Shown here: one piece after another, positions 960 to 18,475 of the stretch
How positions within the stretch are numbered: the stretch's first letter is position 1
Layout of the letters: every line of letters begins with the position of its first letter
DNA from: Oscillospiraceae bacterium
Lineage (GTDB): Bacteria; Bacillota_A; Clostridia; Oscillospirales; Oscillospiraceae
Reading direction: 5' to 3'
Length of the DNA: 19,197 nt
NCBI GenBank assembly: GCA_017537045.1
Contig: JAFYLN010000069.1
Coordinates: 1-19,197 of the forward strand
Notes under the pieces: model-generated
Database searches by the model: none
What the model saw: only the letters and a program-made list of their open reading frames with translations
What the model was told of the DNA's origin: nothing
Program-made: the position numbers and the translations under genes

Positions 960-1000
960 TAAAAAGTGCTGAGTTCTGAGTTCTGAGTGCTGAATGATTG

Positions 1001-1041
1001 AAAAAAGCCCGCTGTGGAGTTTTCCACAGCGGGCTTTTTTT
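1001..1041. terminator. Intrinsic terminator after argS
   Basis: A perfect 12-bp stem (1007-1018 with 1023-1034) closes a GTTT loop and is followed by seven T's. The left side is preceded by six A's, so it can also act on the opposite strand, ending transcripts from sbcC. It sits between the convergent argS and sbcC genes. Confidence 0.93.
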
Positions 1042-1060
1042 ATAGAATACCCTTCGCGTA

Positions 1061-1083
1061 GGGGCGACCCTCGCGGTCGTCCC
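1061..1083. repeat. Short GC-rich palindrome between argS and sbcC
   Basis: GGGGCGACC (1061-1069) pairs with GGTCGTCCC (1075-1083), with one G-T pair and a 5-base loop CTCGC. There is no T-run, so it is not a standard terminator. Palindromes of this GGGGCGACC...GGTCG type are, from memory, dispersed intergenic repeats in related GC-rich Clostridia; within this window I see one copy. Just upstream, 970-991 contains tandem near-copies of GAGTTCT. Confidence 0.45.
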
Positions 1084-1096
1084 CCACACAGAAAAA

Positions 1097-3823
1097 TTAC
1101 TCCAGCCGGATCCGCGCCTGGGAGTAGCCGTCTCTCGTCTTGGTGACGATGATCTGCTTCTCGATGCGCTCCTTCAGCTCGGCCACATGGGAGATGATGC
1201 CAACCAATCGGTCGGTGCCGGAGAGGTTTGTGAGGGTGGCGATGGCCTGGCGCAGGGATTCCTCGTCCAGAGAGCCGAAGCCCTCGTCGACAAACATGGT
1301 GTCGAACCGGATGCCGCCGGACTGGCGCTGGATCATCTCGGAAAGTCCCAGTGCCAGGGACAGGGAGGCCTTGAAGCTCTCGCCGCCGGAGAGGGTGCGC
1401 ACCGACCGGGCGGAACCGTTGTAATGGTCAATGACATCCAGCTCGAGGCCGGTGAGCCGTCTGCCGTCGGCAGCCTCGGTGTGGCGGATCAGCTCATACT
1501 GTCCGTCGGTCATCCGCAGCAGCCTTGTGTTGGCACAGGCGATGATCCGGTCGAAATAGGTGGTCTGGACGAAGGTCTCCAGCATCAGCCGCTCCTTACC
1601 GGAGAGTGCGCCGTTGGCGGTCTTCGCCAGGGGCTCCAGCCAGCGCAGCTTTGCCTCCAGAGCGGACAGCTCCCCGGCGGTGCGCTCGAGTCCCTCCCGC
1701 ACCTGACGGTTCACACTGAGCCGTCCGCTGGCGGCGTTGCCGGTCTGGCGCAGGGCGGTCAGCTCCGCGCTCACCTGGGTCAGCTCCGCGTTGGCGGCAT
1801 CGAAGTCGATGGGTTCCTGGGCTTCCAGTGCGGCCTGGGTGGCCTCGATTCTGCCCCGCAGGGCAGTGAGCTGGCTCTCCACCTGCCGGTGGTTCTCCTG
1901 GGCGGAGGCGATGGTCTTCTCCAGCATCGTCTGCCTCTGCTTCCGTACGCCGATCTCCCTCAGGAGGGCTTCCTCCTCCGGATAGGGCAGCGCCTCCCGG
2001 GCGGTCTGGATCTGCTCCCGCCGGGTCTGGACTGCTGCCTCCAGTGCGGCGGCAGTCTGGGCATCGGCGGTCTGTCGCTCGGTCAGCAGCCTGATCTGCT
2101 TTTCCAGACCGGGCATACCGGCCTCCAGGGTTTTCCGCCGCTGTTCCTTCGCGGAAAGCGCCATCCCCTCCCGGGTGGCTTCCTCCAGCTCTCTGCGGCA
2201 CAGCTCCAGAGCATCCGCCATGGTCTGCTCCTCCGGCAGCAGCCGAGCCTTCGACTCAAGCCAGGCCTGTTCCATCTGCGCCCGCTCACCCTCCAGCCGT
2301 CCGGCCTTTGCGCTGGCGGTCTCCGCCTTTTTCCGGGCGGCGTCGGCTTTGTTCTGGGCGGCATCCACCGCATCCTGGGTGGGCGCATGGTCAGCCAGGG
2401 GCGCGGGGGCAGGATGCTCCACGGCGCCGCAGACGGGACAGGGCACGCCCTCGGTCAGAGCCGAGGCGAGGATGCCCGCCTGGGCATCCAGAAACGCCCG
2501 GTAAAGCCCCTGGTAGGTCTGCTGGGCATCGGCGGCAGTCTTCGCCGCAGCCAGGTATTCCCGCTGCGCCTGCTCCGTCCGGTTGCAGGCATCCCGATAC
2601 CCATGCTCCTGCTTTTGCAGCGCGCTCAGCTCCCACTGCCGCTGGGTCAGCCGCTCCCGGTTCTGGCCGTTCTGAGCCAGCGCCAGGGGCACATCCTTCA
2701 GCTCCTCCAGCTCCGCCGCGGCGAGCTGCTGCTGCTCTCTGGCTTTTTTCAGGTCAGCCTCATTCTTTTCGGCTGTTCCCCGCAGGGTCGCAAGCTTGAT
2801 GTTGTCCCCGCTCTGGCTCTTGAGCATGGCAGCCAGCTCCGCATATCTGGGGCGCACAGCCTCCAGCGCGGCGGTCTCATTGGTCAGCGCCTTCACCTCC
2901 GGAATCAGCGGACGGCAGTCCTCCAGCGCCTGCTCCGCCGCGGCAAGCTGTACCGCTCCCCTGCCCTCGGACTGGCGCATATCCTCCAGAAGCTTGCGCT
3001 GCTTCTGCTGATTTTTTGCCCGCTCCGTCAGCGCGGCCAGATCGGTGCTCCGGGCTTCCAATGCGCCGATCTTCTCCGACAGCCCCTGGATCAATGCTTC
3101 ATCCGCCGCCAGAGATTCCTCCAGGATCCGCTGCACCTCGTCCATGGGCAGACCCCGGATCTCCATCTCCTCCACCGTGCGCAGCATCCCGGCATACTGC
3201 TCCTGGCTCTGGCGCAGCTCCCGCCACCGCTGCTCCGCGGCGCGGTTCTCCACACCCAGACGATCCTGGAGCACCTTATATTTGTCCGTATCAAAAATTT
3301 TCCGGAAGATCTTCACCCGATCCTCGGTCTTCGCCAGCAGCAGCTGCTGGAAATCGCCCTGGGCGATCATGGCGATGGAGGAAAAATGCTCCTTGCCCAC
3401 GCCCAGGATCTCGGTGATCTGGGCGGTGACCTGCTTTTCCTTGGTGATCACGGAGCCGTCGGGCAGATGGAGCTGGGCATCGGGCTTCTGCTCCACCATG
3501 GTGCTGCCCCGCTTGGCGGGACGCAGGTAGCCGGGGTTCCGGCGAACGGTATAGGTCTGCCCGTGGCAGGAAAATTCCAGCTCCACGAAGGTGGGGGTCT
3601 CCGGGGCGGCATACTTGGAGCGGAAGAGGTCAGAGTTGTCCCTTGCGCCGCCGCTGGCCTTGCCGTAGAGGGCATAGCAGATGGCGTCAAAAATCGTTGT
3701 CTTGCCCGCGCCGGTATCGCCGGTGATCAGGTACAGTCCGCCGGTACCCAGGGATGCAAGATCCAGCACGCACTCCCCCGCGTAGGGTCCGAAGGCGGAT
3801 ATGGTCAGCTTCAGCGGTCTCAT
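1097..3823 (-). CDS. sbcC: SbcC, Rad50-like ATPase subunit of the SbcCD nuclease
   Basis: ATPase subunit of the SbcCD (Mre11-Rad50-like) complex, which processes hairpins and blocked DNA ends during replication and repair. The 908-aa length is typical. The N-terminus has the Walker A motif GDTGAGKT (35-42) and a Q-loop AQGDFQQ (about 154-160). A long coiled coil rich in A, E, Q and R follows, with a zinc-hook CPVC at 462-465 at its turn, then a second coiled coil. The C-terminal ABC signature LSGGES starts at 811, Walker B MFVDEG at 843-848, and the D-loop is GSLD. The start codon overlaps the end of sbcD by 4 bases (ATGA type), so translation is coupled. A very long open frame on the opposite strand is only a GC-bias shadow. 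Confidence 0.97.
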   Translation of the reverse strand: MRPLKLTISAFGPYAGECVLDLASLGTGGLYLITGDTGAGKTTIFDAICYALYGKASGGARDNSDLFRSKYAAPETPTFVELEFSCHGQTYTVRRNPGYLRPAKRGSTMVEQKPDAQLHLPDGSVITKEKQVTAQITEILGVGKEHFSSIAMIAQGDFQQLLLAKTEDRVKIFRKIFDTDKYKVLQDRLGVENRAAEQRWRELRQSQEQYAGMLRTVEEMEIRGLPMDEVQRILEESLAADEALIQGLSEKIGALEARSTDLAALTERAKNQQKQRKLLEDMRQSEGRGAVQLAAAEQALEDCRPLIPEVKALTNETAALEAVRPRYAELAAMLKSQSGDNIKLATLRGTAEKNEADLKKAREQQQLAAAELEELKDVPLALAQNGQNRERLTQRQWELSALQKQEHGYRDACNRTEQAQREYLAAAKTAADAQQTYQGLYRAFLDAQAGILASALTEGVPCPVCGAVEHPAPAPLADHAPTQDAVDAAQNKADAARKKAETASAKAGRLEGERAQMEQAWLESKARLLPEEQTMADALELCRRELEEATREGMALSAKEQRRKTLEAGMPGLEKQIRLLTERQTADAQTAAALEAAVQTRREQIQTAREALPYPEEEALLREIGVRKQRQTMLEKTIASAQENHRQVESQLTALRGRIEATQAALEAQEPIDFDAANAELTQVSAELTALRQTGNAASGRLSVNRQVREGLERTAGELSALEAKLRWLEPLAKTANGALSGKERLMLETFVQTTYFDRIIACANTRLLRMTDGQYELIRHTEAADGRRLTGLELDVIDHYNGSARSVRTLSGGESFKASLSLALGLSEMIQRQSGGIRFDTMFVDEGFGSLDEESLRQAIATLTNLSGTDRLVGIISHVAELKERIEKQIIVTKTRDGYSQARIRLE

Positions 3824-4956
3824 GCTTCCTCCTTCCAGATCGATTCGATCAGTCCCGTCAGGTATTTGCGCTGGTCATCCCCCAGCTCACGGTTGTTCTG
3901 CTTTTCATACAGCAGTCCAAAGAGCTCCAGGGGCGAGGTCTCGGGCATGATCTCCGCCTCCAGGGGATTCTGCCGTGTCCGGGTTCGCTCGTTGTCATAG
4001 CTGAGCTTCATGATGTAGGGGTACACCGTCCGCATCCGTCCCAGCGCCTCGGGCACATCCTCCTCGTCGGTGAGGGTGATGTGCAGATAGCTCTCCGGCA
4101 GATCGGTTCCATAGTAGAAGGAGCGGCTCATCAGCTCCTCATAAGTGCCCCGGATCTGCTTCAGATCCCGCAGGGGCTTCAGCTCCCGGGTGGTGATGGT
4201 CAGGCTTCCCTTCTCCTGAAGCTGCACAAAGGTCACGCTCTTATGGTGATTGGCCTCGGAGAAGGAATATTTGAGCATGGTGCCGCAGTAGCGGATGTGA
4301 TCTCCGCCCGCCCGCTGGGCGCCGTGGAGGTGACCCAGAGCCACATAATCAAAGCCCGCGAACACCTCGGCATCCACATTGTCGCTGCCGCCGATGCTCA
4401 CTTCCTCGCTTTCGCACCGCTCGGAGCCGGTGACGAACTGGTGCGCCAGGAGCACATGGCGGTTTCCGTCCGCCCGGTCAATGGCGGACAGTCCCACCCG
4501 GGCGGCATCGGTATAGCTCTCGATGACCTCCTCCGGGTAAAAGCGGCGCACCTGCACAGGCTTCAGGAAGGGCAGCAGATGGATGCACACCGTGCCGAAC
4601 TCGTCCTGCTGCCGAATCGTGGTCACCGTGCCGTCATAGACCGGGGACAGGTAGACCCCCGCCCGCTCCAGAAGCCGCCCGCCGAAGGCCAGCCGCTCGG
4701 CGGAATCGTGGTTGCCGCTGATGATGTACACCGGACAGCACTGCGCCAGCCGGGAGAGGAACCAGTCAAAGAGCTCCACCGCCTCGGCCGAGGGCACGGT
4801 CTTGTCATAAATGTCGCCACAGAGCAGCGCCCCATCAGGCTTCTCCTCCGCCGCCAGCATCAAAATCTGCTCCAGCACATGGCGCTGGTCGGCGATCATG
4901 GTAAATCCATTGACCCGCTTACCCAGATGCAGGTCGGATAAATGCATCAGTTTCAT
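3820..4956 (-). CDS. sbcD: SbcD, Mre11-like nuclease subunit of SbcCD
   Basis: Metallophosphoesterase-type exo/endonuclease subunit that works with SbcC. All metal-binding motifs are visible: DLHLG (D8, H10), GDIYD (D48), GNHD (81-84), AHQF (H172) and GHLHG (H209, H211). The 378-aa length is normal for the family. The start ATG lies one base after the stop of the M3 peptidase gene and its end overlaps sbcC by 4 bases, so the three genes form one minus-strand operon. The only ribosome-binding match is a weak GGGGAT inside the preceding gene, which fits translational coupling. Composition is like the host genes. Confidence 0.96.
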   Translation of the reverse strand: MKLMHLSDLHLGKRVNGFTMIADQRHVLEQILMLAAEEKPDGALLCGDIYDKTVPSAEAVELFDWFLSRLAQCCPVYIISGNHDSAERLAFGGRLLERAGVYLSPVYDGTVTTIRQQDEFGTVCIHLLPFLKPVQVRRFYPEEVIESYTDAARVGLSAIDRADGNRHVLLAHQFVTGSERCESEEVSIGGSDNVDAEVFAGFDYVALGHLHGAQRAGGDHIRYCGTMLKYSFSEANHHKSVTFVQLQEKGSLTITTRELKPLRDLKQIRGTYEELMSRSFYYGTDLPESYLHITLTDEEDVPEALGRMRTVYPYIMKLSYDNERTRTRQNPLEAEIMPETSPLELFGLLYEKQNNRELGDDQRKYLTGLIESIWKEEA

Positions 4957-4957
4957 C

Positions 4958-6661
4958 TCATTCGATCCCCGTCAGGTCAAAATTGTCCAGATAGTCCTTG
5001 GCCTTGACCGCGATCTCCTTCAGGCACTCGGGGTCGAAGGGGCTGCGCAGTCCGGCAGAGGCCAGCAGATTGGTGAAGACCATGCTGCCACCGAGCCTGG
5101 TGTAGTCCATGTAGGTCTTCCAGGCGGCATCCCGGTTTTCCCGGAGCATCGCCCAGAACTGCAGCGCCACAGTCTGCGCCAGACAGTAGTCGATATAATA
5201 GAAGGGGCGCTTATAGATGTGCGCCTGCCGCTGCCAGGCCTTGCCCTCGCCGTAGAAGGGAATGTCGTCCGGGCGCACCCAGGGCATATACAGCCCCATC
5301 AGCTCCTGCCAGACCATGTGCCGCTCCTTGGGGCCGAACTCGGGATACTCGTAGATGACATGCTGGAAATGATCCACCATGGTGCCGTAGGGGATGAAGC
5401 ACAGCCGCTCCGCCAGATGGGTATAGCGGAACTTGTCGCCATCGGCGCCGAAGAAATCCTCCGCCCAGTCCTCGGCAAAGAATTCCATGGCCATGGAGTG
5501 GACCTCGCAGCCCTCCAGGCTGGGGGTCATGCTCTCGGAGGGCACCCGATCCCGGTTGACATAGAAGGCAAAGGCATGTCCCGCCTCATGGGTGATGACC
5601 TTGACATCATGGGCAGTTCCGTTAAAATTGGCAAAGATGAAGGGAGACTTTGCGGTGTAGACACCGGTGCAGTAGCCGCCCATGGCCTTGCCGGGTCTGC
5701 TCTGAACGTCCATCATCTCCCCCGCCATCATGCCGTTCCAGAATTCCTTCGTCTCGGGACTCAGCTCGGAATAGAACTTGGTTCCGGCGGCCAGTACCGC
5801 ATCCGCATCGCCCACGGGCCTGGGGTTGCCGCTGCGGAAGGCCAGATCCTTGTCCGCAAAGCTCAGGGGGAATTCGAAGCCCATCCGCTTGGCCTGCTCC
5901 ATGTAAATGCGCTTGCACAGGGGCACCACATAGTCCTGGACGGCCTTGCGGAAGGTCTCCACGTCCTTCTCGGTGTAGCAGTTGCGCTGCATCCGGTCAT
6001 AGCCCAGAGGGGTGTAGCTCTTGTGGCCGAGCTTGAGGGCCATGCCGTGGCGCAGCGCCACCAGCTCGTCATAGATGGCATCCAACTCCTTGCCGTTTTC
6101 CTTGAACCACTTGCCCTCGGCCTTCCAGGCGGCGCGGCGCTTTTCGTCATCGGTGCTCAGCTTGTAAGGCTCCATCTGGGAGATGGTACAGGTTTTGCCG
6201 TCAAAGGGGATCTGGGCGGAGGCGATGAGCTTGGTGTATCGGCTGACCAGCTCGTTCTCCTTCTGCAGATCCTCCACGATCTCGGGCTTGAAGGTGCGGT
6301 TTGCCAGCTCCGCGTTCAGCAGCGCCACTTCGCCGTACTTCTCCTCCAGCTTTCCCCGGAAGGGGCTGCGGAGCAGCGCATCCGTCCAGGCCTGCTTCAG
6401 GGGCTGCACTTTGGGCAGCTCCCGGTTGTAGAATTTCATCTCGCCGTCATAGAATTCGTTCCGGGTGTCAATGTCCCGGCGGATCTGCGCCACCGTGCGC
6501 ATGGTGCGGATCGTCCGGCCATCCAGATCGTTCATGGCAAGAAATGCCGCTTCCGCCTCCTCAAAGCTCCGAGCCCCGCACAGCCGCTCCGTCAGCGCCG
6601 CCAGCTCCGCCTTCAGCGCATCCAGATCGATGCGCTCATATTGGATCTCAGAAAAAGTCAT
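4958..6661 (-). CDS. M3-family oligoendopeptidase
   Basis: Zinc metallopeptidase of the thimet-oligopeptidase/PepF clan (MEROPS M3), expected to cut short peptides in the cytoplasm. The zinc site HEAGH is at residues 358-362; the third ligand is probably E386 in EVHS. I chose the ATG at 6661 (567 aa) because GGAGGAG lies 6 bases upstream; a 22-residue longer frame is open but would start inside the promoter. The length and the helical N-terminal half before the HEXXH fit the 'M3 family, not PepF proper' group. No signal peptide is seen. It is the first gene of an operon with sbcD and sbcC; no functional link to DNA repair is known to me. Confidence 0.93.
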   Translation of the reverse strand: MTFSEIQYERIDLDALKAELAALTERLCGARSFEEAEAAFLAMNDLDGRTIRTMRTVAQIRRDIDTRNEFYDGEMKFYNRELPKVQPLKQAWTDALLRSPFRGKLEEKYGEVALLNAELANRTFKPEIVEDLQKENELVSRYTKLIASAQIPFDGKTCTISQMEPYKLSTDDEKRRAAWKAEGKWFKENGKELDAIYDELVALRHGMALKLGHKSYTPLGYDRMQRNCYTEKDVETFRKAVQDYVVPLCKRIYMEQAKRMGFEFPLSFADKDLAFRSGNPRPVGDADAVLAAGTKFYSELSPETKEFWNGMMAGEMMDVQSRPGKAMGGYCTGVYTAKSPFIFANFNGTAHDVKVITHEAGHAFAFYVNRDRVPSESMTPSLEGCEVHSMAMEFFAEDWAEDFFGADGDKFRYTHLAERLCFIPYGTMVDHFQHVIYEYPEFGPKERHMVWQELMGLYMPWVRPDDIPFYGEGKAWQRQAHIYKRPFYYIDYCLAQTVALQFWAMLRENRDAAWKTYMDYTRLGGSMVFTNLLASAGLRSPFDPECLKEIAVKAKDYLDNFDLTGIE

Positions 6662-6695
6662 GTTGATCTCCTCCATCGTAATGTTATCTGCCCCC

Positions 6696-6704
6696 AGTAT
6701 ATCA
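6696..6704 (-). promoter_or_regulatory. Extended -10 promoter of the M3 peptidase-sbcD-sbcC operon
   Basis: On the minus strand this reads TGATATACT, a full extended -10 (TGn followed by TATACT). The -35 region is poor, which extended -10 promoters tolerate. It lies about 35 bases before the peptidase start codon. Confidence 0.6.
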
Positions 6705-6793
6705 CAATTCCGCAAAATTGGAAGCACCCAAACGCCCCACTCCCCCGCCTAAATCAACCCCGATAAAAAACTTTCCCATTTTCGAAAAAGTGC

Positions 6794-6822
6794 TTGACAA
6801 ACCACAGCCCCTGTGTTACTAT
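6794..6822 (+). promoter_or_regulatory. Promoter of tRNA-fMet
   Basis: A perfect -35 TTGACA (6794-6799), a 17-bp spacer and a -10 TACTAT (6817-6822) stand about 30 bases before the tRNA. Spacing is ideal. It lies outside the inserted element, so the tRNA keeps its native promoter after integration. Confidence 0.8.
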
Positions 6823-6852
6823 ATCTGAGCACTGAGGTGCGCAACCAAATAT

Positions 6853-6928
6853 CGCGGAGTAGAGCAGTTGGAAGCTCGTCGGGCTCATAACCCGGAGGTC
6901 GTAGGTTCGAGTCCTGCCTCCGCAACCA
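6853..6928 (+). tRNA. Initiator tRNA-fMet (CAT), integration target
   Basis: A full 76-nt cloverleaf with encoded CCA. Acceptor CGCGGAG faces CTCCGCA, which leaves the C1:A72 mismatch that marks bacterial initiator tRNAs. The D stem is GAGC/GCTC. The anticodon CAT is at 6886-6888, inside a stem with the three G:C pairs (GGG/CCC) diagnostic of initiators. From position 31 of the tRNA onward the sequence is repeated exactly at 18425-18473. The 3' part, including anticodon loop, T arm and CCA, was therefore supplied by the integrated element, which rebuilds a complete gene. Confidence 0.97.
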
Positions 6929-6931
6929 TAA
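6883..6931 (+). repeat. attL: left 49-bp direct repeat
   Basis: Identical to 18425-18473. It begins at the last base of the 5' side of the anticodon stem and runs through the T arm, CCA and three bases more. Identity starting at the anticodon loop fits integrases that recombine there; the 7-base loop CTCATAA (6884-6890) is the likely crossover segment (inference). Confidence 0.93.
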
Positions 6932-6933
6932 AA

Positions 6934-6965
6934 AGTCCTGAAATCGTAAGATTTCAGGACTTTTT
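6934..6965 (+). terminator. Element-supplied terminator of tRNA-fMet
   Basis: A perfect 12-bp stem (6934-6945 with 6950-6961), loop GTAA, ending in TTTTT. It lies just inside the element, 5 bases after the tRNA CCA, and replaces the native terminator that integration has moved to 18476-18518. Confidence 0.9.
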
Positions 6966-7025
6966 CTTGCTTTTTAGGGGCTGAAAAGTTCGGGGAGAAA
7001 TTCTGCGAATCTGTGAAAAACGATC

Positions 7026-7045
7026 TGACCCATATTCTGACCCAT
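7026..7045 (+). repeat. Left pair of TGACCCAT repeats (putative integrase arm sites)
   Basis: TGACCCAT occurs at 7026-7033 and 7038-7045, 12 bases apart in the same orientation. The same octamer, in the same orientation and with pairs spaced 12-13, recurs near the right end. Short directly repeated sites inboard of both att cores are typical arm-type sites for tyrosine integrases. Binding is inferred. Confidence 0.65.
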
Positions 7046-7091
7046 AATAGGATAGCACCTAGTGGACTGAGAGTCCTATTTTGAAGGAGTA

Positions 7092-7120
7092 TCGACATAC
7101 CTTGACATTTATGGTATACT
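7092..7120 (+). promoter_or_regulatory. Promoter of the SDH-family protease gene
   Basis: A -35 TCGACA (7092-7097, one mismatch), a 17-bp spacer and a full extended -10 TGGTATACT (7112-7120). An exact TTGACA at 7102-7107 also exists but has no good -10 at the right distance. An inverted repeat AATAGGA/TCCTATT (7046-7052, 7074-7080) lies just upstream and could be an operator. Confidence 0.68.
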
Positions 7121-7151
7121 TTAAATATATTACAATAAAGGGGTATGGGCT

Positions 7152-8015
7152 ATGATTACTTCTCCTATAAATAGCGCTAATCGACAGGCAATAGAGAACT
7201 CTTTTTCAGCTTTAGAGAAAGTGCTTGATGCTGATGTTATGGTTTATTACGGGGAGCTAATTGATGGCGTTGAAGCAGATGTCAAACAGATAATTGAGCA
7301 AATCTGTCATGATGGAAAGAAACACGACACATTGTACATTCTTTTAACCACACCCGGTGGTAGCTTGAATCCGGTTAAACGCATGGTGAATATTTTCCGA
7401 AATTTCTATGCGGAAGTTAACTTTATTATCCCGGATTATGCATATAGTGCAGGTACCGTAATGTGCTGTAGTGGCGATAAAATATTTATGGACTACTATA
7501 GTGTTCTGGGACCTATCGATCCCCAGGTTAGAAACAAGGATGGGAAATTCGTTGCAGCATTGGGATATTTGGATAAAATTAATGAATTGATCCAAAAGGC
7601 AAAGAATAACGAACTCACTAATGCAGAGTTTATTATTTTGAAGGACTTTGATTTGGCAGAACTCCGTGCGTACGAACAAGCACGCGATTTGGCGGTTGAT
7701 TTGCTTGTCGAATGGTTACCCAAATATAAGTTTAAGAATTGGAGTATCCATCAATCTTCACAAAATCCTGTTACGATTGAAGAAAAGAAAAACAGAGCAC
7801 TGGAAATTGCACAGAATCTTAGCGACAATAAAGAATGGAAATCGCATGGCCGTCCTATAAGTCGTGAGGAATTGGGCAGACTAAAACTGCAAATTGATCA
7901 TATTGAAGACAATGCTGATGCATATGCTGCAGTTACGGCATACCATGAACTTATGATAGATTATGTTAGAAAGTACAATATGCAAAGATTTATTCAGACA
8001 AGGGGGTTCTTGTAA
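7152..8015 (+). CDS. SDH-family Clp-fold serine protease-like protein
   Basis: 287 aa, resembling the SDH (serine dehydrogenase proteinase, PF01972-like) branch of the ClpP/crotonase fold. Visible marks are TPGGS (67-71, oxyanion-type loop), YSAGT with presumed nucleophile Ser99, the LGPIDPQ segment (119-125) typical of this family and SppA, and a C-terminal WKSHGRPIS motif (229-237). The partner residue of the catalytic Ser is not obvious. Unlike many SDH proteins it has no N-terminal membrane segment, so it is probably cytosolic. It has its own extended -10 promoter. Its stop overlaps the start of the 68-aa gene by one base, so the two are one unit. The substrate is unknown; a defence or stress role is inferred only from location. 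Confidence 0.8.
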   Translation: MITSPINSANRQAIENSFSALEKVLDADVMVYYGELIDGVEADVKQIIEQICHDGKKHDTLYILLTTPGGSLNPVKRMVNIFRNFYAEVNFIIPDYAYSAGTVMCCSGDKIFMDYYSVLGPIDPQVRNKDGKFVAALGYLDKINELIQKAKNNELTNAEFIILKDFDLAELRAYEQARDLAVDLLVEWLPKYKFKNWSIHQSSQNPVTIEEKKNRALEIAQNLSDNKEWKSHGRPISREELGRLKLQIDHIEDNADAYAAVTAYHELMIDYVRKYNMQRFIQTRGFL

Positions 8016-8221
8016 TGTCAATTTGTGATGAAATACAAAAGCTAGTAGCAGACAGAGAATCTACTTTGTTTGATGCTAGTGTGTGTGAAATGTATGAGGA
8101 GGCAAGTAAGTCCTTCCAAGAGTTGGTAGACAAAGGATTCGCGTATAAGCGGGGATATCAATTGCTACCTATCGAAAGTACAGTTTGTAACAATGTGGAT
8201 TTTAATGTTAGTCGCACATAA
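8015..8221 (+). CDS. Small 68-aa protein coupled to the SDH-family protease
   Basis: I do not recognise this protein. The ATG shares one base with the preceding stop, with AGGGGG about 8 bases upstream, so it is translated with the protease. The first ~40 residues are acidic and probably helical; a KRGYQLLPIE segment follows at about 44-53. No membrane segment or metal motif is seen. A substrate adaptor, inhibitor or regulator of the protease is possible, but that is only inference from coupling. A perfect 8-bp inverted repeat (8218-8225 with 8236-8243) covers its stop codon. Confidence 0.7.
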   Translation: MSICDEIQKLVADRESTLFDASVCEMYEEASKSFQELVDKGFAYKRGYQLLPIESTVCNNVDFNVSRT

Positions 8222-8261
8222 TGTTACATTATAGGAACATTATTGTGATACAATGCCGAAT

Positions 8262-8300
8262 AAAACCTCTCCCATGCCAATCGACATAGGGAGAGGTTTT
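8262..8300 (+). terminator. Terminator after the protease pair
   Basis: A 12-bp perfect stem AAAACCTCTCCC/GGGAGAGGTTTT (8262-8273 with 8289-8300) with a 15-base loop and a T-rich tail. It isolates the protease pair from the restriction-modification promoter. Confidence 0.82.
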
Positions 8301-8348
8301 CTTTGTTTATGGTGTACCATTTTTTGAACTGTGATTTTTGGTGTTAAT

Positions 8349-8370
8349 GAGCGTCAATATATTGACGCTC
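8349..8370. promoter_or_regulatory. Perfect 22-bp palindrome with GCGTC/GACGC, putative operator
   Basis: GAGCGTCAATA (8349-8359) is followed directly by its exact reverse complement. Each arm contains the pentamer GACGC in opposite orientation (GCGTC 8351-8355, GACGC 8364-8368). GACGC is the known recognition site of the LlaJI system, which the downstream genes resemble. The right arm contains the -35 hexamer, so binding or methylation here should affect transcription. Confidence 0.8.
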
Positions 8371-8390
8371 GACAAAATGTGTTGTATAAT
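8362..8390 (+). promoter_or_regulatory. Promoter of the restriction-modification operon
   Basis: A -35 TTGACG (8362-8367), exactly 17 bp spacer and perfect -10 TATAAT (8385-8390). The -35 is inside the palindrome and overlaps its GACGC. The predicted start near 8397 leaves a leader of about 46 bases before the first gene. Confidence 0.88.
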
Positions 8391-8442
8391 TACAGAAAAC
8401 ATACGATCGGTATTTATGTGATTTTTGGTATAGGAGGAAAAT

Positions 8443-8700
8443 ATGTACGATCTTACTGGATTTGAACATTGGCTAGATGCTAATTTTACATACACAAAAG
8501 AGACCAAAAGCAATATTGTTTCTCGCCTGCGCCGTGCAGATAAAATGCTTGCTGTGGTAAATGAACCGGTGTATCTGTTTAATCTTTCACAATGCAGCGA
8601 ATTTACAGAACTGTCGGTTACAGTGAAATCCCAAATTCGCAGAGCTGTCAAGCTGTATAGCCAATATTTAGAAAACGAGGGACAGAACGCCAATGAGTAA
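8443..8700 (+). CDS. 85-aa first protein of the restriction-modification operon
   Basis: Function not recognised. An AGGAGG at 8432-8437 precedes the ATG, and the gene overlaps the first methyltransferase by 8 bases, so it is a real coupled member of the operon. The predicted all-helical protein has the pattern FEHWL (about 6-10), SRLRRADKM (about 27-35) and AVKLYSQYL (about 68-76). This resembles a SAM-like core-binding helical module and also the segment at about residues 261-354 of the McrB-like protein downstream (FRAWF...LNWYEKFL). It may be a stand-alone DNA-binding or assembly module, or a controller that binds the operator; both are inference. Confidence 0.75.
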   Translation: MYDLTGFEHWLDANFTYTKETKSNIVSRLRRADKMLAVVNEPVYLFNLSQCSEFTELSVTVKSQIRRAVKLYSQYLENEGQNANE

Positions 8701-9853
8701 ACACAGAATTAAAGCGGTCTCTCTGTTTGCTAATGTTGGCATTGCAGAGACCTACTTGAGCGAGATCGGCATCGATGTTATTGTAGCCAACGAGATTGAT
8801 CCTCGGAGAGTTGCACTCTATAGACATCTTTATCCAGAAACGAAGATGATTGAGGGTGATATTACTTCGCCTGACATCAAGGACCAGATTGTTACTTATG
8901 CCACAGAGAACGGCGTGGAGCTGCTTCTGGCGACGCCGCCTTGTCAGGGAATGAGCACGGCTGGTAAAATGGATAAATGGGATGTGCGAAACACCCTGAT
9001 TTGTCATGCGATCGAAATGGTCAAACGCATTCGTCCCAAGTATGTGTTTTTGGAAAATGTTCCGCAGCAGCTTACTACCAAGATCAAATACAACGGCGAA
9101 ATTATGCGGATTCCGGACTATGTTCGTGCAGAACTGGAAAGCGACTATCAGTTCAATGACGAAATGAAGATTGAAGCATCGGATTATGGTGTACCGCAGT
9201 ACCGAGAGAGAGCAATTATGCTTCTGGTTCGAAAAGATTTAGGATTCAAGTGGGCTTTTCCCGAGAAAACAGGTGCTGTTACATTAGAACAGGCGCTTGG
9301 TAATCTTCCTTCCCTTGATCCTGAAATTTATGATGTTTCTTACGAAGAAATGATCCGTCTGCAGCCCGAGTATGAGGAAAAGAAGCGCCGGGGCGCAGAG
9401 GTTTCTCCTTGGCATTATCCGCCGAAACATATTTATCGGCAGGTTGTTAGCATGATGCACACTCCGACGGGGCAAACAGCATTCGATAATATCGACAAAT
9501 ATAAGCCCCGCAAGAAAAATGGAGACCTTGTTACTGGTTTCCGAAATACGTATAAGCGGCAGCATTGGGATCGGCCAGGAACAACGGTGACGATGTATAG
9601 CCGGGAAATCAGTTCTCAGGGTAATGTTCATCCAGGTCGGTTGATTGGCACAGATGAGGAAGGCTTGCCTATTTATTCTGACGCAAGAGTCATGTCCATC
9701 TACGAGTTGATGATCATGTCCTCCTTGCCGGGTGATTGGAATATCCCTATAGGAACTTCTGATCATTTTATTAGATGTGTAATCGGCGAGGGTATTCCCC
9801 CGCTGTTGGTTAAGAAAATAATGGAAAACTTAATGGTGAATATAGATGAGTAA
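8693..9853 (+). CDS. DNA (cytosine-5)-methyltransferase 1, LlaJI M1-like
   Basis: Transfers a methyl group from S-adenosylmethionine to C5 of cytosine. The 386-aa protein shows motif I LFANVGIAE (11-19), motif IV TPPCQG with catalytic Cys84, motif VI ENVP (121-124), a motif VIII-like QYRER (169-173), a target recognition region, and motif X as GEGIPP (365-370). It is clearly paralogous to the next gene, sharing ATPPCQGMS, LENVPQ, LIT/LTTKI and the C-terminal IGEGIPPLLVKKIM. In LlaJI-type systems two such enzymes each methylate one strand of an asymmetric site, and I infer the same here. Start overlaps the 85-aa gene by 8 bases; the ATG sits in ATGAGTAAAC. Confidence 0.95.
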   Translation: MSKHRIKAVSLFANVGIAETYLSEIGIDVIVANEIDPRRVALYRHLYPETKMIEGDITSPDIKDQIVTYATENGVELLLATPPCQGMSTAGKMDKWDVRNTLICHAIEMVKRIRPKYVFLENVPQQLTTKIKYNGEIMRIPDYVRAELESDYQFNDEMKIEASDYGVPQYRERAIMLLVRKDLGFKWAFPEKTGAVTLEQALGNLPSLDPEIYDVSYEEMIRLQPEYEEKKRRGAEVSPWHYPPKHIYRQVVSMMHTPTGQTAFDNIDKYKPRKKNGDLVTGFRNTYKRQHWDRPGTTVTMYSREISSQGNVHPGRLIGTDEEGLPIYSDARVMSIYELMIMSSLPGDWNIPIGTSDHFIRCVIGEGIPPLLVKKIMENLMVNIDE

Positions 9854-10988
9854 ACTTACAGGCTTGTCGCTGTTCTCCAATGTCGGTGTAGCCGAAGCAT
9901 ATTTTAAGCAAATCGGTGTTGATATCGTATTGGCAAACGAACTTCTGCCGGAACGGGCACGGTTCTATGCTGATGTTTACAATCACACGGAAATGATTTG
10001 CGGAGATATTTGCGATGAAACGATCAGAACCGGTATTGTAGACCGTGCTATTGAAAAGAATGTCAATTTCATAATTGCGACACCCCCTTGCCAGGGCATG
10101 AGTAAGCTGGGATCTATGAATCCCCATGATGCGAGAAATCAGCTGATCTACTATGCGGTTGATGTTATTAAGCGCGTTCGACCCAAGTTTGTTCTGTTGG
10201 AGAATGTCCCCCAGACCCTGATCACAAAGATTGTGGTCGATGGGGAAGAAATGCTGATTCCGGAGTATCTCAAACGCGAGCTAGGTGACTACTATGAGTT
10301 TAACACAGATCCTCGTGTTAAGGCTATGGATCATGGTGTCCCTCAGATGAGACCGAGATGCATTTTCTTGCTTACTGCCAAGAATACCGGGATTCACTGG
10401 GAATTCCCCAAGGTTGAAGAAAAGCTAGTTACAATGGAAGATGCTATTGGTCATCTCCCTTCTGTAGATCCTGTAGTGCGTGAAGGTATGGATCACACTC
10501 TTGCACTGTTCCCGGATTTCGAGAAGAAAAAGGAAGCTGCAGCGAAGGTTTCAAAATGGCACTTCCCTCCGACACACAATCGGCGCCATGTAGAATGGAT
10601 GATGCACACACCCTCTGGTACTTCTGCGATCTACAATGAAGTTCATTATCCCCAAAAGCCGGACGGAAAGAAAATTGTTGCTCATGAGAATCAGTACCGG
10701 CGTCATGCATGGGAAAAGCCGTGCAGAACAATCACGCAGAATAATGGTGTTCTTAGTTCGCTGTGTTGTGTGCATCCTGGTAGACCTTACCAAACGGCGG
10801 ACGGCAAGACACTTTATTCCGACCCACGAGTATTGACGATCTACGAGCTGCTACTGGTGTCGTCTTTGCCGGCAGATTGGCCTATCCCTGATTGGGCAAA
10901 CGAAAGCCTTATCCGCCATGTAATTGGTGAAGGTATCCCGCCACTACTAGTAAAGAAAATCATGGTTGAACTACTCAACCAGATTTGA
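9846..10988 (+). CDS. DNA (cytosine-5)-methyltransferase 2, LlaJI M2-like
   Basis: Second m5C methyltransferase, 380 aa. Motif I is LFSNVGVAE (9-17), motif IV TPPCQG with catalytic Cys82, motif VI ENVP (119-122), QMRPR (167-171) and motif X GEGIPP (361-366). It overlaps the first methyltransferase by 8 bases at a junction with the same ten bases, ATGAGTAAAC, as that gene's own start, which supports origin by tandem duplication. The variable region before motif IX differs from its paralogue, as expected if the two recognise opposite strands of one asymmetric site. It is followed after 12 bases by the McrB-like gene. Confidence 0.95.
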   Translation: MSKLTGLSLFSNVGVAEAYFKQIGVDIVLANELLPERARFYADVYNHTEMICGDICDETIRTGIVDRAIEKNVNFIIATPPCQGMSKLGSMNPHDARNQLIYYAVDVIKRVRPKFVLLENVPQTLITKIVVDGEEMLIPEYLKRELGDYYEFNTDPRVKAMDHGVPQMRPRCIFLLTAKNTGIHWEFPKVEEKLVTMEDAIGHLPSVDPVVREGMDHTLALFPDFEKKKEAAAKVSKWHFPPTHNRRHVEWMMHTPSGTSAIYNEVHYPQKPDGKKIVAHENQYRRHAWEKPCRTITQNNGVLSSLCCVHPGRPYQTADGKTLYSDPRVLTIYELLLVSSLPADWPIPDWANESLIRHVIGEGIPPLLVKKIMVELLNQI

Positions 10989-11000
10989 TTGGAGGAAATC

Positions 11001-12962
11001 ATGGGTAAAATCATAATTCCGAAAAATACTGCTACTCCCGATGAAGTTATGGGCGCATTGCAAATCTATTACGATGCTAATGATTGGTTGACCAATGCGG
11101 ACTTTCGAAACACATATAAAGAGAGATACGGTATTCTGGGAGATGACACGGATCTATCTGCGTACACGGCAAAGGTAGAGATTGGTTCCTACTATGGATT
11201 TGTTGAATGGCAGAATATCAAAAAATCTCAATCTCCCCGCAGAATTACTGCTCGTGGCAGACAGTTTTTGGAACACTACAATGCTGGTGCTACTGATGCA
11301 ATCCACGAAGACATTATGTGTTCCCTGGAAGAAGTAATATTTGGCCGCAATAATTTTGCGTGCCAGTCCAGTGATTCCGACATAGATCCGCCTGCACTGT
11401 TTTTGAGAGCAACAATCGACTTGGGGTATCTTACAAATACAGAGTTTGCACATCTTGTGTATCGCATGGAGTATGATGCTAAGCATTATACAGAAATGAT
11501 CCGAGAGATCAAGGCATATCGGGATCGCGACGAAGCAATTAAACTGCCTGACGATGGAAAGAAGTACAAGGATCCCAAACCTATTCTTATGCTTGAACGG
11601 TGGGGTGTTTTATCATCCGCTCAGGTTGGCAATTCCAAGAGGCTGAGCATCAGCGCAGCATTCCTTGCTAAGTATCAACAGAGACTGCGTAACCTGAAAA
11701 TTTACAACATCGATAAGAATGTCAGTGCAGATGTTGAAGCTGACCAGGGTGAAACAGAGGCTGCAAGCGACAACGAGCAGCGCTTTAGAGCATGGTTCGC
11801 TACGCAAAAGACGGTCTATGGAAAACCGCCTACGGCCAGTGCTATTTATAATAACTGTGCGGCACTGAAAAAAGTGTGCGAGCTGATGGACATAGAAGAA
11901 TATCCAGACATGGAGAGCTTGTTCGAGATTACAGACCTCGAAGCATTCCAGAGTGTGAAGCAGTACATCAAATCGCATCCTGACTATCAGGAAATCAACA
12001 AGGCTTGCTACAACAAGTTCCTGAGTACCGGATTAAACTGGTATGAGAAATTCCTGGTGTATTTGATGGAGGAGGAAGAGGTGGCGGAGACACCCGATCC
12101 TTATCTCAAGAAGGATTTCCTGGAAGATGTATTTCTTACGGAAGAAGAGTACGATGAACTGGTTGCACTTCTGCTGTACAAGAAAAATGTAATTTTGCAG
12201 GGCGCACCAGGTGTCGGTAAAACTTTCCTTGCCAAGCGGCTGGCTTATTCCATTATGGGTGTTGCATCTAAGCATCATGTGGAAATGGTACAGTTTCATC
12301 AGAATTACAGTTATGAAGACTTTATTATGGGCTACAAGCCCGCTGGAGACAGCTTCGAACTGAAGGAAGGCGTGTTTTACAGCTTCTGTAAAAAAGCTGA
12401 GCAGAAGCCGGAAGAGAAGTACTTCTTCATCATCGATGAAATTAACCGCGGTAATTTGAGCAAGGTCTTTGGTGAATTGATGCTGTTGATTGAAAATGAC
12501 AAGCGCGGTGAACAGGTCACCTTGGCCTATCGCAATGAGAAATTTACTGTTCCCGCAAATGTTTATATCATCGGCATGATGAATACGGCAGACCGCAGCT
12601 TGGCTTTGATGGACTATGCGCTGCGCAGAAGATTCAGCTTCTTTGAGGTTGTGCCGGCGTTCAAGCGCACGAAGTTTGTCGATCATGTAACTGCGTTGAT
12701 CGGTGATGTTGACACAGTGAATATGCTGAATGACCGTTTGTATGCGCTGAATGAGATCATTGCCGACGAGGACAAGTCCGGTCTTGGCAAGGGTTTCTGT
12801 ATTGGTCACAGTTATTTCTGCACCAAGCCGGTTGCAGGCCAGACTCCTGATCAGTGGTATAGGACTATCATCAAGTTCGAAATCAGCCCCTTACTGGATG
12901 AATACTGGTGGGACGACAAGGACAAGGCCAACGAGTGTAAAAAAGAATTGCTGGGAGAGTAA
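11001..12962 (+). CDS. McrB-like AAA+ GTPase subunit, LlaJI R1-like
   Basis: Predicted NTP-driven motor subunit of a two-part restriction nuclease. I chose ATG 11001 (653 aa) because GGAGGAA lies 3 bases upstream; a TTG 12 bases earlier would place the start inside that site. The C-terminal half is a McrB-type AAA+ domain: Walker A GAPGVGKT (401-408), Walker B IIDEIN (477-482) and the McrB family signature MNTADRS (527-533). The first ~370 residues replace the short 5mC-binding domain of E. coli McrB. They include helical segments that look winged-helix-like (about 15-95) and a second helical module (about 257-354). This region probably reads the target site. The stop is 5 bases before the McrC-like gene. 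Confidence 0.94.
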   Translation: MGKIIIPKNTATPDEVMGALQIYYDANDWLTNADFRNTYKERYGILGDDTDLSAYTAKVEIGSYYGFVEWQNIKKSQSPRRITARGRQFLEHYNAGATDAIHEDIMCSLEEVIFGRNNFACQSSDSDIDPPALFLRATIDLGYLTNTEFAHLVYRMEYDAKHYTEMIREIKAYRDRDEAIKLPDDGKKYKDPKPILMLERWGVLSSAQVGNSKRLSISAAFLAKYQQRLRNLKIYNIDKNVSADVEADQGETEAASDNEQRFRAWFATQKTVYGKPPTASAIYNNCAALKKVCELMDIEEYPDMESLFEITDLEAFQSVKQYIKSHPDYQEINKACYNKFLSTGLNWYEKFLVYLMEEEEVAETPDPYLKKDFLEDVFLTEEEYDELVALLLYKKNVILQGAPGVGKTFLAKRLAYSIMGVASKHHVEMVQFHQNYSYEDFIMGYKPAGDSFELKEGVFYSFCKKAEQKPEEKYFFIIDEINRGNLSKVFGELMLLIENDKRGEQVTLAYRNEKFTVPANVYIIGMMNTADRSLALMDYALRRRFSFFEVVPAFKRTKFVDHVTALIGDVDTVNMLNDRLYALNEIIADEDKSGLGKGFCIGHSYFCTKPVAGQTPDQWYRTIIKFEISPLLDEYWWDDKDKANECKKELLGE

Positions 12963-12967
12963 TTCTC

Positions 12968-14080
12968 ATGAGTGAACAAAAGCTACCCATTCCAATTAAA
13001 AATATATTCTATATGCTGTGTTACGCATGGAATATTCTGTCTATTAAGGGAGAGATCGAAGTTGATGAGGATGACTTCGGTGATGCATATAACCTTCTTG
13101 CCAGAATTTTTACATTCGGATTGGGTAAGCTTATCCGCTCCGGTTTCCATCGCTCGTATATAGAAGAGACGGAACTGCTGCCTACGGTAAGAGGTCGGAT
13201 CAACATCGGCGGCAGTATCCGTGCGCGTATGGCTCGGCAGCAGAAAATGGAATGCACATACGATGAGTATTCCAGGAATGATTGCTTTAATCAAATCCTG
13301 AAATATACGATCGATGCACTTATGAAGAATCCTGAGATCGACAAGAAGATCAAAAAGGATTTGAAAAAGATGCAGGTGTATTTCTCAGGAATTGATTCAA
13401 CGGCTCCGACAAAAGATGTTCGCCGCGGATTGATTTTCAATCGAAATAATACCACCTATAAGATGCTGATCCACGTTGCTATTATGCTGTATGACAACAC
13501 AATGGTAAACGAGGAGGACGGCAAGAATGCATTTGCAGACTTCTTCCGGGACGGTCAGATGGAACGAGTATATGAGATGTTTATTCTCAATTTCTATGCG
13601 CTGCACCTGAATTCGGCACAGTATCGGGTCCATGCGCCCAAAATCACATGGAATATGGAAGAAGATGCAGAGGATCGATATGGCGGATTGGTGGATATTG
13701 TAATGAATCCTTCTGATCGCCGGACGGATATTGTAATCGAGAATAAGGTCACCAAGAAACAACTGATCCTTGATGCAAAGTATTATCAAGAAACCCTTGT
13801 GCGTGGCTATCGGGATTCTGCCATTGCCCGATTCCGCAGAAACCATATTGATCAGGTTCGTGGTTATGTGCTGGATAGCAAGTACCCAGGAAAGAAATTG
13901 GGCGCTTTGGTGTATCCGACGGTTAAGGATGATTTTCCAAGACCGCAGATGGCACCAATGCAAGGCTCCCTTGTGCTGTTCAAAACATTGAATCTGAATA
14001 AGGATTGGCGGGATATTGAACAGGATTTGTTAGCATTTGTACCGCTGCTTGAGCAAGTTTTGGATCAACAGCGGAATTAA
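12968..14080 (+). CDS. McrC-like PD-(D/E)xK nuclease subunit, LlaJI R2-like
   Basis: Predicted endonuclease partner of the McrB-like GTPase, 370 aa. The N-terminal part starts IPIKNIFYMLCYAW, a typical McrC-family opening. The nuclease core is at the C-terminal side: a helix MERVYEMFILNFY (198-210), D243 in GLVDIVM, and the DxK pair D269/K271 in LILDAKYY, which fits the PD-(D/E)xK fold of McrC. The ATG follows the McrB-like stop by 5 bases, with GGGAGAG about 8 bases upstream. Together with the GTPase it should translocate and cut; whether it needs unmethylated GACGC (as in LlaJI) or modified DNA (as in E. coli McrBC) is inferred from operon layout in favour of the former. Confidence 0.93.
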   Translation: MSEQKLPIPIKNIFYMLCYAWNILSIKGEIEVDEDDFGDAYNLLARIFTFGLGKLIRSGFHRSYIEETELLPTVRGRINIGGSIRARMARQQKMECTYDEYSRNDCFNQILKYTIDALMKNPEIDKKIKKDLKKMQVYFSGIDSTAPTKDVRRGLIFNRNNTTYKMLIHVAIMLYDNTMVNEEDGKNAFADFFRDGQMERVYEMFILNFYALHLNSAQYRVHAPKITWNMEEDAEDRYGGLVDIVMNPSDRRTDIVIENKVTKKQLILDAKYYQETLVRGYRDSAIARFRRNHIDQVRGYVLDSKYPGKKLGALVYPTVKDDFPRPQMAPMQGSLVLFKTLNLNKDWRDIEQDLLAFVPLLEQVLDQQRN

Positions 14081-14100
14081 CCACTTAGGAGGTGTCCGTC

Positions 14101-15057
14101 TTGGTGAGTCAACCAACTGTTGTTAGTTTGTTCGCCGGAATTGGCGGGATCTGCCTTGGCTTCAAACAAGCTGGTTTTGAAATCGTGTGGGCTAACGAGA
14201 AAGATGCTGCAGCCTGTCGAACATATCGCTACAATTTTGGTGGCGAGTACCTGGTTGAAGGGGATATACGTAAACTTGATATGGCTCAGCTACCTCGTGC
14301 TGATGTACTTGCAGCGGGTTTCCCGTGCCAATCATTTTCGGTGGCGGGACTAAAAAAGGGATTTGCCGACACGAGAGGTCAGTTGTTTTTTGAGGTGATT
14401 CGCGCTATTGAGGAGATCCAACCTCCGGTAGTGTTTTTAGAAAATGTTGAAAACCTGATGGAACACGATGGGGGAAGAACTTTTCAAGTGATTTATTCTT
14501 CCCTTGTTGAGCATGGCTATATCCTGCGGTATCAACCAATGGCTACCCATGAATATGCGAATATTCCACAGACACGGCGCAGGGTTTACATTGTGGCATT
14601 TCGGGATTATGCGATGTGTCAGAAGTTCCAATTTCCAGTTCCTGTACCATTAACGGCAGATATTCATGCATTTCTTGATCGAGAAACAGAGCAACATGAG
14701 ATCTACTATTATCGCACCGGGACACCATTTGACGAATATATCCGAAGCCATGCCACGGATATGGATGGCTTATACCGGGTTTTTGATGGTGTAATTAAAA
14801 AGTATTCATTAGGAAAATGTCCGACATTGACAGCTTCCATGAGTGCGCCGCGAAATGCCACTGTGCTAAGAGACAATTGGGGTGTTCGGCGGCTGACCTT
14901 ACGGGAATCTCTGCGATTCCAAGGTTTTCCGCAGGAGTTCTATTTCCCCAATACGATTAAGCTGGAGGATGCGTATAAGCAAATAGGAAATTCTGTTACG
15001 GTTCCGGTGGTCAAAGCTATAGCAGCGAACATTAAAGCGGTTCTCTATAATGGATAA
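14101..15057 (+). CDS. Third DNA (cytosine-5)-methyltransferase, Dcm/HhaI type
   Basis: A separate m5C methyltransferase, not closely like the two upstream. Motifs are canonical: FAGIGG (11-16), PCQ with Cys76 in GFPCQSFS, ENVENL (114-119), QTRRRVYIV, RRLTLRESLRFQGFP and motif X GNSVTVP (296-302). A strong AGGAGGTG (14087-14094) ends 6 bases before TTG 14101, so I start there (318 aa); GTG 14092 overlaps the ribosome site. The target recognition region is short (about 175-260). It lies 20 bases after the McrC-like stop and before the operon terminator, so it is co-transcribed. No extra endonuclease stands beside it. It may protect against, or mark DNA for, the same nuclease; its target is unknown. 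Confidence 0.93.
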   Translation: MVSQPTVVSLFAGIGGICLGFKQAGFEIVWANEKDAAACRTYRYNFGGEYLVEGDIRKLDMAQLPRADVLAAGFPCQSFSVAGLKKGFADTRGQLFFEVIRAIEEIQPPVVFLENVENLMEHDGGRTFQVIYSSLVEHGYILRYQPMATHEYANIPQTRRRVYIVAFRDYAMCQKFQFPVPVPLTADIHAFLDRETEQHEIYYYRTGTPFDEYIRSHATDMDGLYRVFDGVIKKYSLGKCPTLTASMSAPRNATVLRDNWGVRRLTLRESLRFQGFPQEFYFPNTIKLEDAYKQIGNSVTVPVVKAIAANIKAVLYNG

Positions 15058-15062
15058 AAGAT

Positions 15063-15095
15063 TTGCGGTACGCTCTCCGGCGCACCGCAATTTTT
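15063..15095 (+). terminator. Terminator of the restriction-modification operon
   Basis: An 11-bp stem with one mismatch (15063-15073 with 15080-15090) around TTGCGGT/ACCGCAA, loop of 6, then TTTTT. It separates the operon from the convergent integrase gene, whose stop codon it touches. Confidence 0.85.
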
Positions 15096-16236: not shown

Positions 16237-16263
16237 GCTATCAACTCCTTTCGTAGCGCACAC

Positions 16264-16631
16264 AATACTACATGTTTTTGATAATAGCTAGTCACGAAAT
16301 CTACCAAATGTATTTTGTCTATAAGAGGCTAAAACTGCCCTAAAATTCAAAAGGCGCCAGATTAATCGTTGTGGCACTAAGCAAATCCTGATTTTGGGCG
16401 CCAAGGGGTCAAAACAGAGTGCAAAAAGGCGCCAAAATTTTGCGAAGAGTGCAATTCCGAAAAAGTTTTGGGAGGCTAAGAGAAATCCCGCCCGGCATTG
16501 CCGGACGGTGGGCTTGAGGTGGTGCAAAAGGCACCACCTCTTATTCCTGCAATCTTTTCGCAACAGCTGGTAAGCCCCAGAATCAATCTCCTCTGGTGAA
16601 AATATCAGGTCGATTCCAGTCCTTCGATGAT
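16264..16631. other. Intergenic region between excisionase and integrase, with hairpins and GGCGCCA repeats
   Basis: About 370 bases without a supported gene. It holds GGCGCCA three times (16353, 16397, 16428), two copies of AGAGTGCAA, an imperfect hairpin CCGGC-ATT-GCCGG extended outward (16488-16508), and a perfect 10-bp hairpin GAGGTGGTGC/GCACCACCTC (16516-16525 with 16531-16540). Neither hairpin has a T-run on either strand. The region probably regulates integrase expression; no clear promoter could be fixed. Confidence 0.5.
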
Positions 16632-16841: not shown

Positions 16842-17037
16842 ATCAATTCTCCTTTCTTAATAGATTTTGAGGCCGGTTCAAGCCAAACCTGTGGCGGACA
16901 CGGGGTGAATGTGACGATGGAGGGATTACTGCTTTGTTCAAAAGAAAAGGGCACACATCGGCAACAGCTGGCTTACCTTTCTCACCATACTATTAGGACA
17001 AAACTCGCAAAAAACGGCACGGTGAATTTTGGCGCAG

Positions 17038-17313: not shown

Positions 17314-17315
17314 AT

Positions 17316-17917: not shown

Positions 17918-17923
17918 GATAGT

Positions 17924-17967: not shown

Positions 17968-17981
17968 CGGTGAGAAAAGAC

Positions 17982-18473: not shown

Positions 18474-18475
18474 CT

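Follow-up and report, generated by a model that had tools for sequence, protein, structure and literature searches.

The window analyzed here, by which we mean the whole stretch of 19,197 nt from an Oscillospiraceae bacterium (assembly GCA_017537045.1, contig JAFYLN010000069.1, positions 1–19197), contains a restriction-modification operon that, to judge from its sequence, is LlaJI-like, and whose promoter is overlaid by a perfect 22-bp palindrome made of two inverted GACGC pentamers. Downstream of that promoter lies a gene for a protein of 85 amino acids (the 85-aa protein; 8443–8700, + strand), whose domain occurs together with the pentamer pair in most relatives of the system that encode it. 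We consider it reasonably probable that the palindrome is an operator of the LlaJI type, at which a dimer of the 85-aa protein would repress the operon in a manner tuned by the methylation of GACGC.

The sequence GAGCGTCAATATATTGACGCTC at 8349–8370 equals its own reverse complement and can be written as GCGTC-N8-GACGC, with the left target pentamer at 8351–8355 (− strand, reading GCGTC on the + strand) and the right one at 8364–8368 (+ strand). A promoter scan placed the −35 hexamer TTGACG (8362–8367, +) in the right arm of the palindrome and the −10 hexamer TATAAT (8385–8390, +) after a spacer of 17 nt, the two hexamers matching the consensus in 11 out of 12 positions; a scan of 8150–8480 found no terminator between the upstream gene and this promoter. 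The 85-aa reading frame overlaps by 8 nt the start of M1 (8693–9853), a 5-methylcytosine (m5C) DNA methyltransferase (PF00145, 2.9e-41), which is followed on the same strand (+) by a second one, M2 (9846–10988; PF00145, 1.8e-33), and then by two restriction genes: R1 (10989–12962), which in profile and pairwise matches comprises a LlaJI-type N-terminal part and an McrB-like AAA part, and R2 (12968–14080), an McrC-like subunit (PF10117, 1.7e-30). The palindrome with its two pentamers, the position of the promoter hexamers, and the order of two m5C methyltransferases, McrB-like, and McrC-like genes had all been given in a preliminary description of this DNA, and the sequence, the coordinates, and the profile matches agree with it. 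The actual start of R1 may lie four codons downstream, at the ATG from which R1 matches R1.LlaJI. A classification as type IV McrBC, which by definition is without a cognate methyltransferase and cuts methylated DNA, was rejected because the operon carries two methyltransferase genes.

A tblastn search of 72,556 plasmid records with M1 returned five Lactococcus plasmids at the top (54.4–54.6% identity) and a sixth match at 32.9%, the best being LlaJI of the Lactococcus lactis plasmid pNP40 (NC_010901.1; M1 54.6% identical). The two systems share the order M1-M2-R1-R2, with homologous M1, M2, and R1 N-terminus: R1 is 33% identical to R1.LlaJI over 279 N-terminal positions and 30% over 245 in the AAA part, some 100 residues between these matches being without alignment, and it also matches the PADLOC profile REase_II (PDLC03547, 5e-59). 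These M1 and R1 figures uphold the likeness to LlaJI that had been asserted earlier, and the paired pentamers are indeed placed as in that system, since the pNP40 promoter (L001), which reads GGCGTCAAATTCTTGACGCC, carries GCGTC-N8-GACGC over a −35 TTGACG, 17 nt ahead of TAGAAT. The differences reside in the palindrome, which in LlaJI spans about 52 bp and is imperfect at its centre, as opposed to the perfect 22 bp of the window; in the regulatory domain, which LlaJI has as part of M1 and the window as a separate open reading frame (ORF); and in R2, an McrC (PF10117) in the window, whose pairwise match to R2.LlaJI reaches only E 0.011. Within the methyltransferases, the target-recognition domains are closer to those of LlaJI than the catalytic parts are (68 versus 53% identity in M1, 71 versus 61% in M2), which offers indirect support for GACGC recognition, and better support than does the promoter pentamer. 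As to regulation, LlaJI is a published precedent for control through a system's own sites and, in the accessible literature, the single case of such promoter control: according to the accessible parts of the sources, M1.LlaJI represses its own gene (PMC3978073), the LlaJI promoter probe contains two target sites, the arrangement of target sites can control the operon (PMC11779793), and R1.LlaJI binds the promoter fragment (section 8 of PMC1459862).

Relatives were found by scanning genome and viral contigs with an alignment of M1, which yielded 145 loci: 76 from the best 80 of 567 genome-contig matches, 67 from viral contigs, pNP40, and the window. Two adjacent methyltransferases were present in 79, and these we classed by the small domain lying before or at the start of M1: the domain of the window in 28, a Cro/C1-type helix-turn-helix (HTH) in 14 (three of these assignments being weak, at 13–15 bits), a ribbon-helix-helix in 9, and HTH_17 in 4, while in 24 none of the small-domain profiles scored. 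Pfam, consulted for five examples, confirmed the HTH and HTH_17 labels, and two ribbon-helix-helix examples had there only sub-threshold matches to ParG, NikA-like, and ParD families. With one HTH locus that is cut off upstream (L088) left out of the operator count, an N8 pair was present in the upstream 520 bp of 23 of the 28 loci with the domain versus 1 of the 50 without it (Fisher p 6e-14, a value that, the rows being related, is no count of independent events); after removal of identical M1 rows the figures were 23/26 and 1/46. The domain was fused to M1 in 20 of the 28 loci and separate in 8, the split form occurring among close relatives; to treat fusion as a defining trait of the LlaJI type is a choice of ours. 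The alignment of upstream regions that had been proposed as a check on the preliminary description thus finds the GACGC pair kept while the flanks vary; the conservation supposed there holds for most loci with the domain, but the pair is missing, an outcome named there as refuting, in 49 of the 50 without it and in 5 of the 28 with it, these last being L026 and a streptococcal locus in four nearly identical copies, each with a single half-site.

In L026 the promoter 5′ of the −10 (upstream of 3522) has been replaced by sequence without GACGC, its M1 groups with that of L022, and the locus is either a real variant or a misassembled contig of a metagenome-assembled genome. At L020 (8899–8916) the operator is kept with TAGACG for TTGACG, no small domain being detected; L030, its neighbour in the M1 tree, has both domain and operator.

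The ribbon-helix-helix loci separate the regulator from the methyltransferases. Their target-recognition domains are about as similar to those of the window as are those of the domain class and of LlaJI (in M1, a mean identity of 69%, with 69% for the domain class and 68% for LlaJI; in M2, 68, 73, and 71%, respectively), yet none of the nine carries the GACGC pair, at least one TGGCGTTT being present upstream in 8/9 and at least two in 7/9. The pair therefore follows the regulator; and, as other small DNA-binding genes fill the same slot in many of the loci without the domain, it belongs to the regulator and not to the methyltransferases as such. In the dual-methyltransferase family, where a ribbon-helix-helix or HTH regulator can take the place of the domain, regulator and operator would seem to move as one cassette. 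The earlier claim that the promoter pentamer predicts the recognition site is consequently weakened, since the pentamer does not do so by itself, whereas the LlaJI-like self-site control proposed with it was right in kind, although the pentamer is explained by the regulator. In L006, L007, L008, L012, L016, L027, L080, and L081 the TGGCGTTT repeats lie near the −35 (L081 with one exact copy), and a ribbon-helix-helix-like gene fills the slot of the 85-aa gene, either separate or apparently fused to M1 (L012/L080, L027).

A tree of 72 M1 proteins, built by a quick method, placed the domain-bearing loci in two groups, with the window, L004, and L005 next to the ribbon-helix-helix loci L006–L009 and apart from the LlaJI group. 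In approximately unbiased (AU) tests a single clade was rejected for all the domain-bearing loci plus L020, which was added after inspection of the tree (p-AU 5e-5), as well as for the ribbon-helix-helix loci (p-AU 1.5e-5). A phylogenetic sign test of domain versus operator had no power, with three independent pairs of which two agreed, none disagreed, and one showed no difference.

The shape of the operator was compared over 23 non-redundant examples, in which the pentamers are given because selection was by GCGTC-N8-GACGC. AA follows the left GCGTC in all 23, though the left arm lies outside the −35, and TT precedes the right GACGC, to form TTGACG, in every example except L020; the −10 that fits best, with 4 to 6 of its 6 bases matching, is 17 or 18 nt away. 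The bases just outside the two arms are complementary in 23/23, where 17.8 would be expected from exchanged partners, this outer pair being A/T in three operators (window, L004, L005) and G/C in the other 20; the second outer bases are complementary in 16/23 versus 7.2 expected, and beyond these positions any excess is slight or irregular. Such a shape would be expected from a protein that reads TTGACGC(C/T) half-sites as a dimer.

The 85-aa protein itself is 43% identical to residues 1–76 of M1.LlaJI, and its ORF is thus the counterpart of the N-terminal part of M1.LlaJI, a correspondence overlooked in the preliminary description. Its structural model (predicted local distance difference test, pLDDT, 91.2) is helical, the nearest solved structures are the core-binding domains of tyrosine recombinases, and in predicted fold the protein looks like such a domain. 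Among the Pfam integrase SAM-like families the window protein had no match and Phage_int_SAM_5 was matched by four relatives among 24, at E 0.036 or worse; a PDB sequence search with the domain profile returned nothing better than E 0.12, and a phage collection searched with one member, that of L024, gave no match. The domain is rare, being present in 2/397, 3/391, 2/398, and 1/296 genomes, the genomes of first detection included. The proteins recorded with the domain included 346 in which it stands alone and 77 with a C-terminal fusion.

Three known regulators invite comparison. Of 24 domain members, 15 give a weak match to TIGR03823, the profile of the flagellar regulator FliZ, but we rejected FliZ as a true homologue, since the profile match is weak (23.1 bits, E 4.6e-5, versus an NCBIfam equivalog cut-off of 159.3 bits) and the hhalign comparison weaker (probability 45), and retain it as an analogy. 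MrpR, the SP-beta master repressor, is, in the accessible part of PMC10516654, a repressor with a tyrosine-recombinase fold, although, of its core-binding and catalytic-type domains, only the former has a counterpart in the window protein. In M.SsoII and M.Ecl18kI a methyltransferase-linked DNA-binding domain, an N-terminal HTH, also controls its own promoter (PMC3978073), but the regulatory site differs from the methylation site (PMC3695355; both sources accessible in part), whereas the operator of the window contains the probable target. A literature search for this domain in methyltransferases found no title or abstract, most subscription papers lying outside that search.

According to the mechanism we propose, the 85-aa protein would bind the palindrome as a dimer, one subunit to each TTGACGC(T/C) half-site, and thus bound would cover the −35 and repress every gene of the operon, including the one that encodes it. 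Because the operator is the system's own target, it is probably methylation-sensitive: methylation by M1 and M2 of the GACGC contained in each half-site would change binding, by strengthening or weakening it, and protein dose and methylation state would jointly set expression. We infer the dimeric binding, the repression, and GACGC as the methylated site; co-occurrence further suggests to us that the DNA reader would be the small domain and not the remainder of M1.

A different reader would be M1 itself, its catalytic and target-recognition part binding the GACGC pair as a repressor and the 85-aa protein only helping. M1.LlaJI does stand among the methyltransferases with proven regulatory function (PMC3695355 and PMC3978073, in their accessible parts), and the retention of the operator at L020 speaks for such a role; but the domain is part of M1 in LlaJI, so that the published passages cannot separate M1 from the domain, and the conserved bases extend past the pentamer on both sides. 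These bases, together with the pairless ribbon-helix-helix loci, make M1 an unlikely reader, if still the most serious competitor. We give less credence to a model without any repressor, in which GACGC methylation alone would weaken the promoter by altering the −35 for RNA polymerase: the right pentamer overlaps the −35, and expression controlled by CfrBI-site methylation is a published case (from a source accessible in part), but the left-arm bases outside the −35, the outer symmetry, and the link to the domain would all go unexplained, and we regard this model as improbable.

The pair might, lastly, be a by-product, TTGACG serving as a good −35—TTGAC is expected in strong −35 elements—and the left half arising by chance or as a transcript hairpin. 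Over the 145 loci (2.26 Mb) GCGTC-N8-GACGC occurs 24 times, always upstream of genes of this methyltransferase family, and each other spacing from 0 to 20 is represented at most twice. In 21 whole genomes (about 61 Mb) there are 29 occurrences, counted on one strand, of which, by our tally, 19 are operators of this family and 10 lie elsewhere, or about one per 6 Mb. Against any excess of the motif in number, those 29 occurrences are not above the 31 that we summed for a reversed-pattern control in the same genomes; nor is the window itself rich in GACGC, with 12 copies versus 32.9 expected from dinucleotide shuffles and 18.3 from a Markov model. The genome total being no higher than the control, it is the placement of the motif and not its number that is unusual, and that placement is far beyond chance. 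As a stand-alone finder the motif was rejected: at least 120 IMG/VR stretches match GCGTCAANNNNTTGACGC, and none of the 120 listed encodes the domain or M1, so that, with the reversed control as common, the motif is diagnostic only beside the gene. Such figures favour a by-product, but the exact N8 spacing upstream of M1 in 23 of 28 domain loci, set against that sparse background, renders it most improbable. Avoidance of GACGC was tried as evidence of recognition and left unused as support (29th lowest of 1002 pentamers, with small counts).

The domain also occurs in a second family. In one further genome, which belongs to the same family as that of L004, its profile matches an m5C methyltransferase at the C-terminus, and tblastn located the domain in HindVP-family systems on Citrobacter and Morganella plasmids, as well as on a related E. 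coli plasmid. Some members of this HindVP/BsaHI type share with the window the domain and carry a pair of their own, GACGTC-N8-GACGTC, with TTGACG as the −35; they differ in having another endonuclease, divergent R and M genes, and a single methyltransferase, the domain being C-terminal or a separate downstream ORF. The pair is present in the promoters of the Citrobacter, Morganella, and E. coli plasmids, with a 17-nt spacer (counted by eye) to TAGTAT or TATCAT, and on a viral contig, where the domain is a separate ORF behind the methyltransferase and the R gene carries the SPERRFD motif of the HindVP-type endonuclease group (promoter pairs at L270 1517–1536, L272 1183–1202, L274 1925–1944, and L273 5930–5949). 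It was thus found in 4 of 5 distinct systems with a clear domain, the exception being L268/L269, whose neighbours are other genes; that count leaves out L280, a damaged Aminobacter copy with a weak match, and L282, a second, near-identical Morganella plasmid. None of four HindVP-type members without the domain (L277, L278, L279, L281) has the N8 pair, although in L281 two GACGTC sites stand 17 bp apart about 180 bp upstream. BsaHI, HgiDI, and HgiGI recognise GRCGYC according to the accessible part of PMC2413257, in whose test the putative HindVP was inactive, so that we infer GRCGYC for the plasmid systems. A search for literature on GACGTC pairs in HindVP-type promoters gave no title or abstract, again with most subscription papers outside it.

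Two new domain loci came from 391 genomes of the class of L013, 398 of the class of L023, and 296 of the phylum of L018; one of the two follows the rule, L286 having the N8 pair and L285/L289 being without an inverted pair. In L289 (4576–5682) and L285 (1680–1820) a stand-alone domain gene precedes a third type of m5C methyltransferase, and the promoter contains TTGACGTTGACGT as a direct repeat of TTGACG.

We see an even chance that a recombinase-derived core-binding domain is a portable autoregulator of restriction-modification systems, encoded either by an ORF of its own or at the N- or C-terminus of various m5C methyltransferases. Its operator would consist of two copies of the system's own target at a constant distance of 8 bp across the −35, the LlaJI types having pairs of GACGC and the GRCGYC types pairs of GACGTC. 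The arrangement may thus be a portable self-sensing switch, and what the analysis adds is an apparently portable core-binding-like regulator with a self-site operator common to two restriction-modification families. If this were true, the promoter would act as a switch that reads methylation, and promoter sequence would offer a way to guess target sites, an uncharacterised system revealing its target in its own promoter. Such control matters to mobile restriction-modification systems, which rely on self-regulation to spare the host that they enter; and as both geometry and domain recur, in two lineages of M1 and in a system of the GRCGYC type, they would amount to a testable general design with a likely DNA reader named.

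The operon of the window lies in an 11.5-kb stretch bounded by identical 49-nt att-like repeats (left copy 6883–6931, right copy 18425–18473), the left of which overlaps the end of a tRNA-Met gene (6853–6928, +; ARAGORN), the insertion site of the island. The same stretch encodes a tyrosine integrase (15094–16263, −; PF00589, 7.3e-32) and an excisionase-like HTH_17 protein (16632–16841, −; profile match). Between the left repeat and the operon (7152–8221) are a gene for an SDH/ClpP-fold serine protease and a 68-aa ORF. Directly 3′ of R2 lies a third m5C methyltransferase of a different subfamily (14092–15057, +; profile matches), and none was found behind R2 at the other loci with a detected R2 (L004, L021, L043, L062, L067, L091, L093). 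GGACC/GGTCC (7 versus 38.3 expected) and GGGCC/GGCCC (5 versus 23.9) are strongly under-represented over the whole window, a scarcity that may point to a further restriction system in the host lineage, its target being GGNCC-like.
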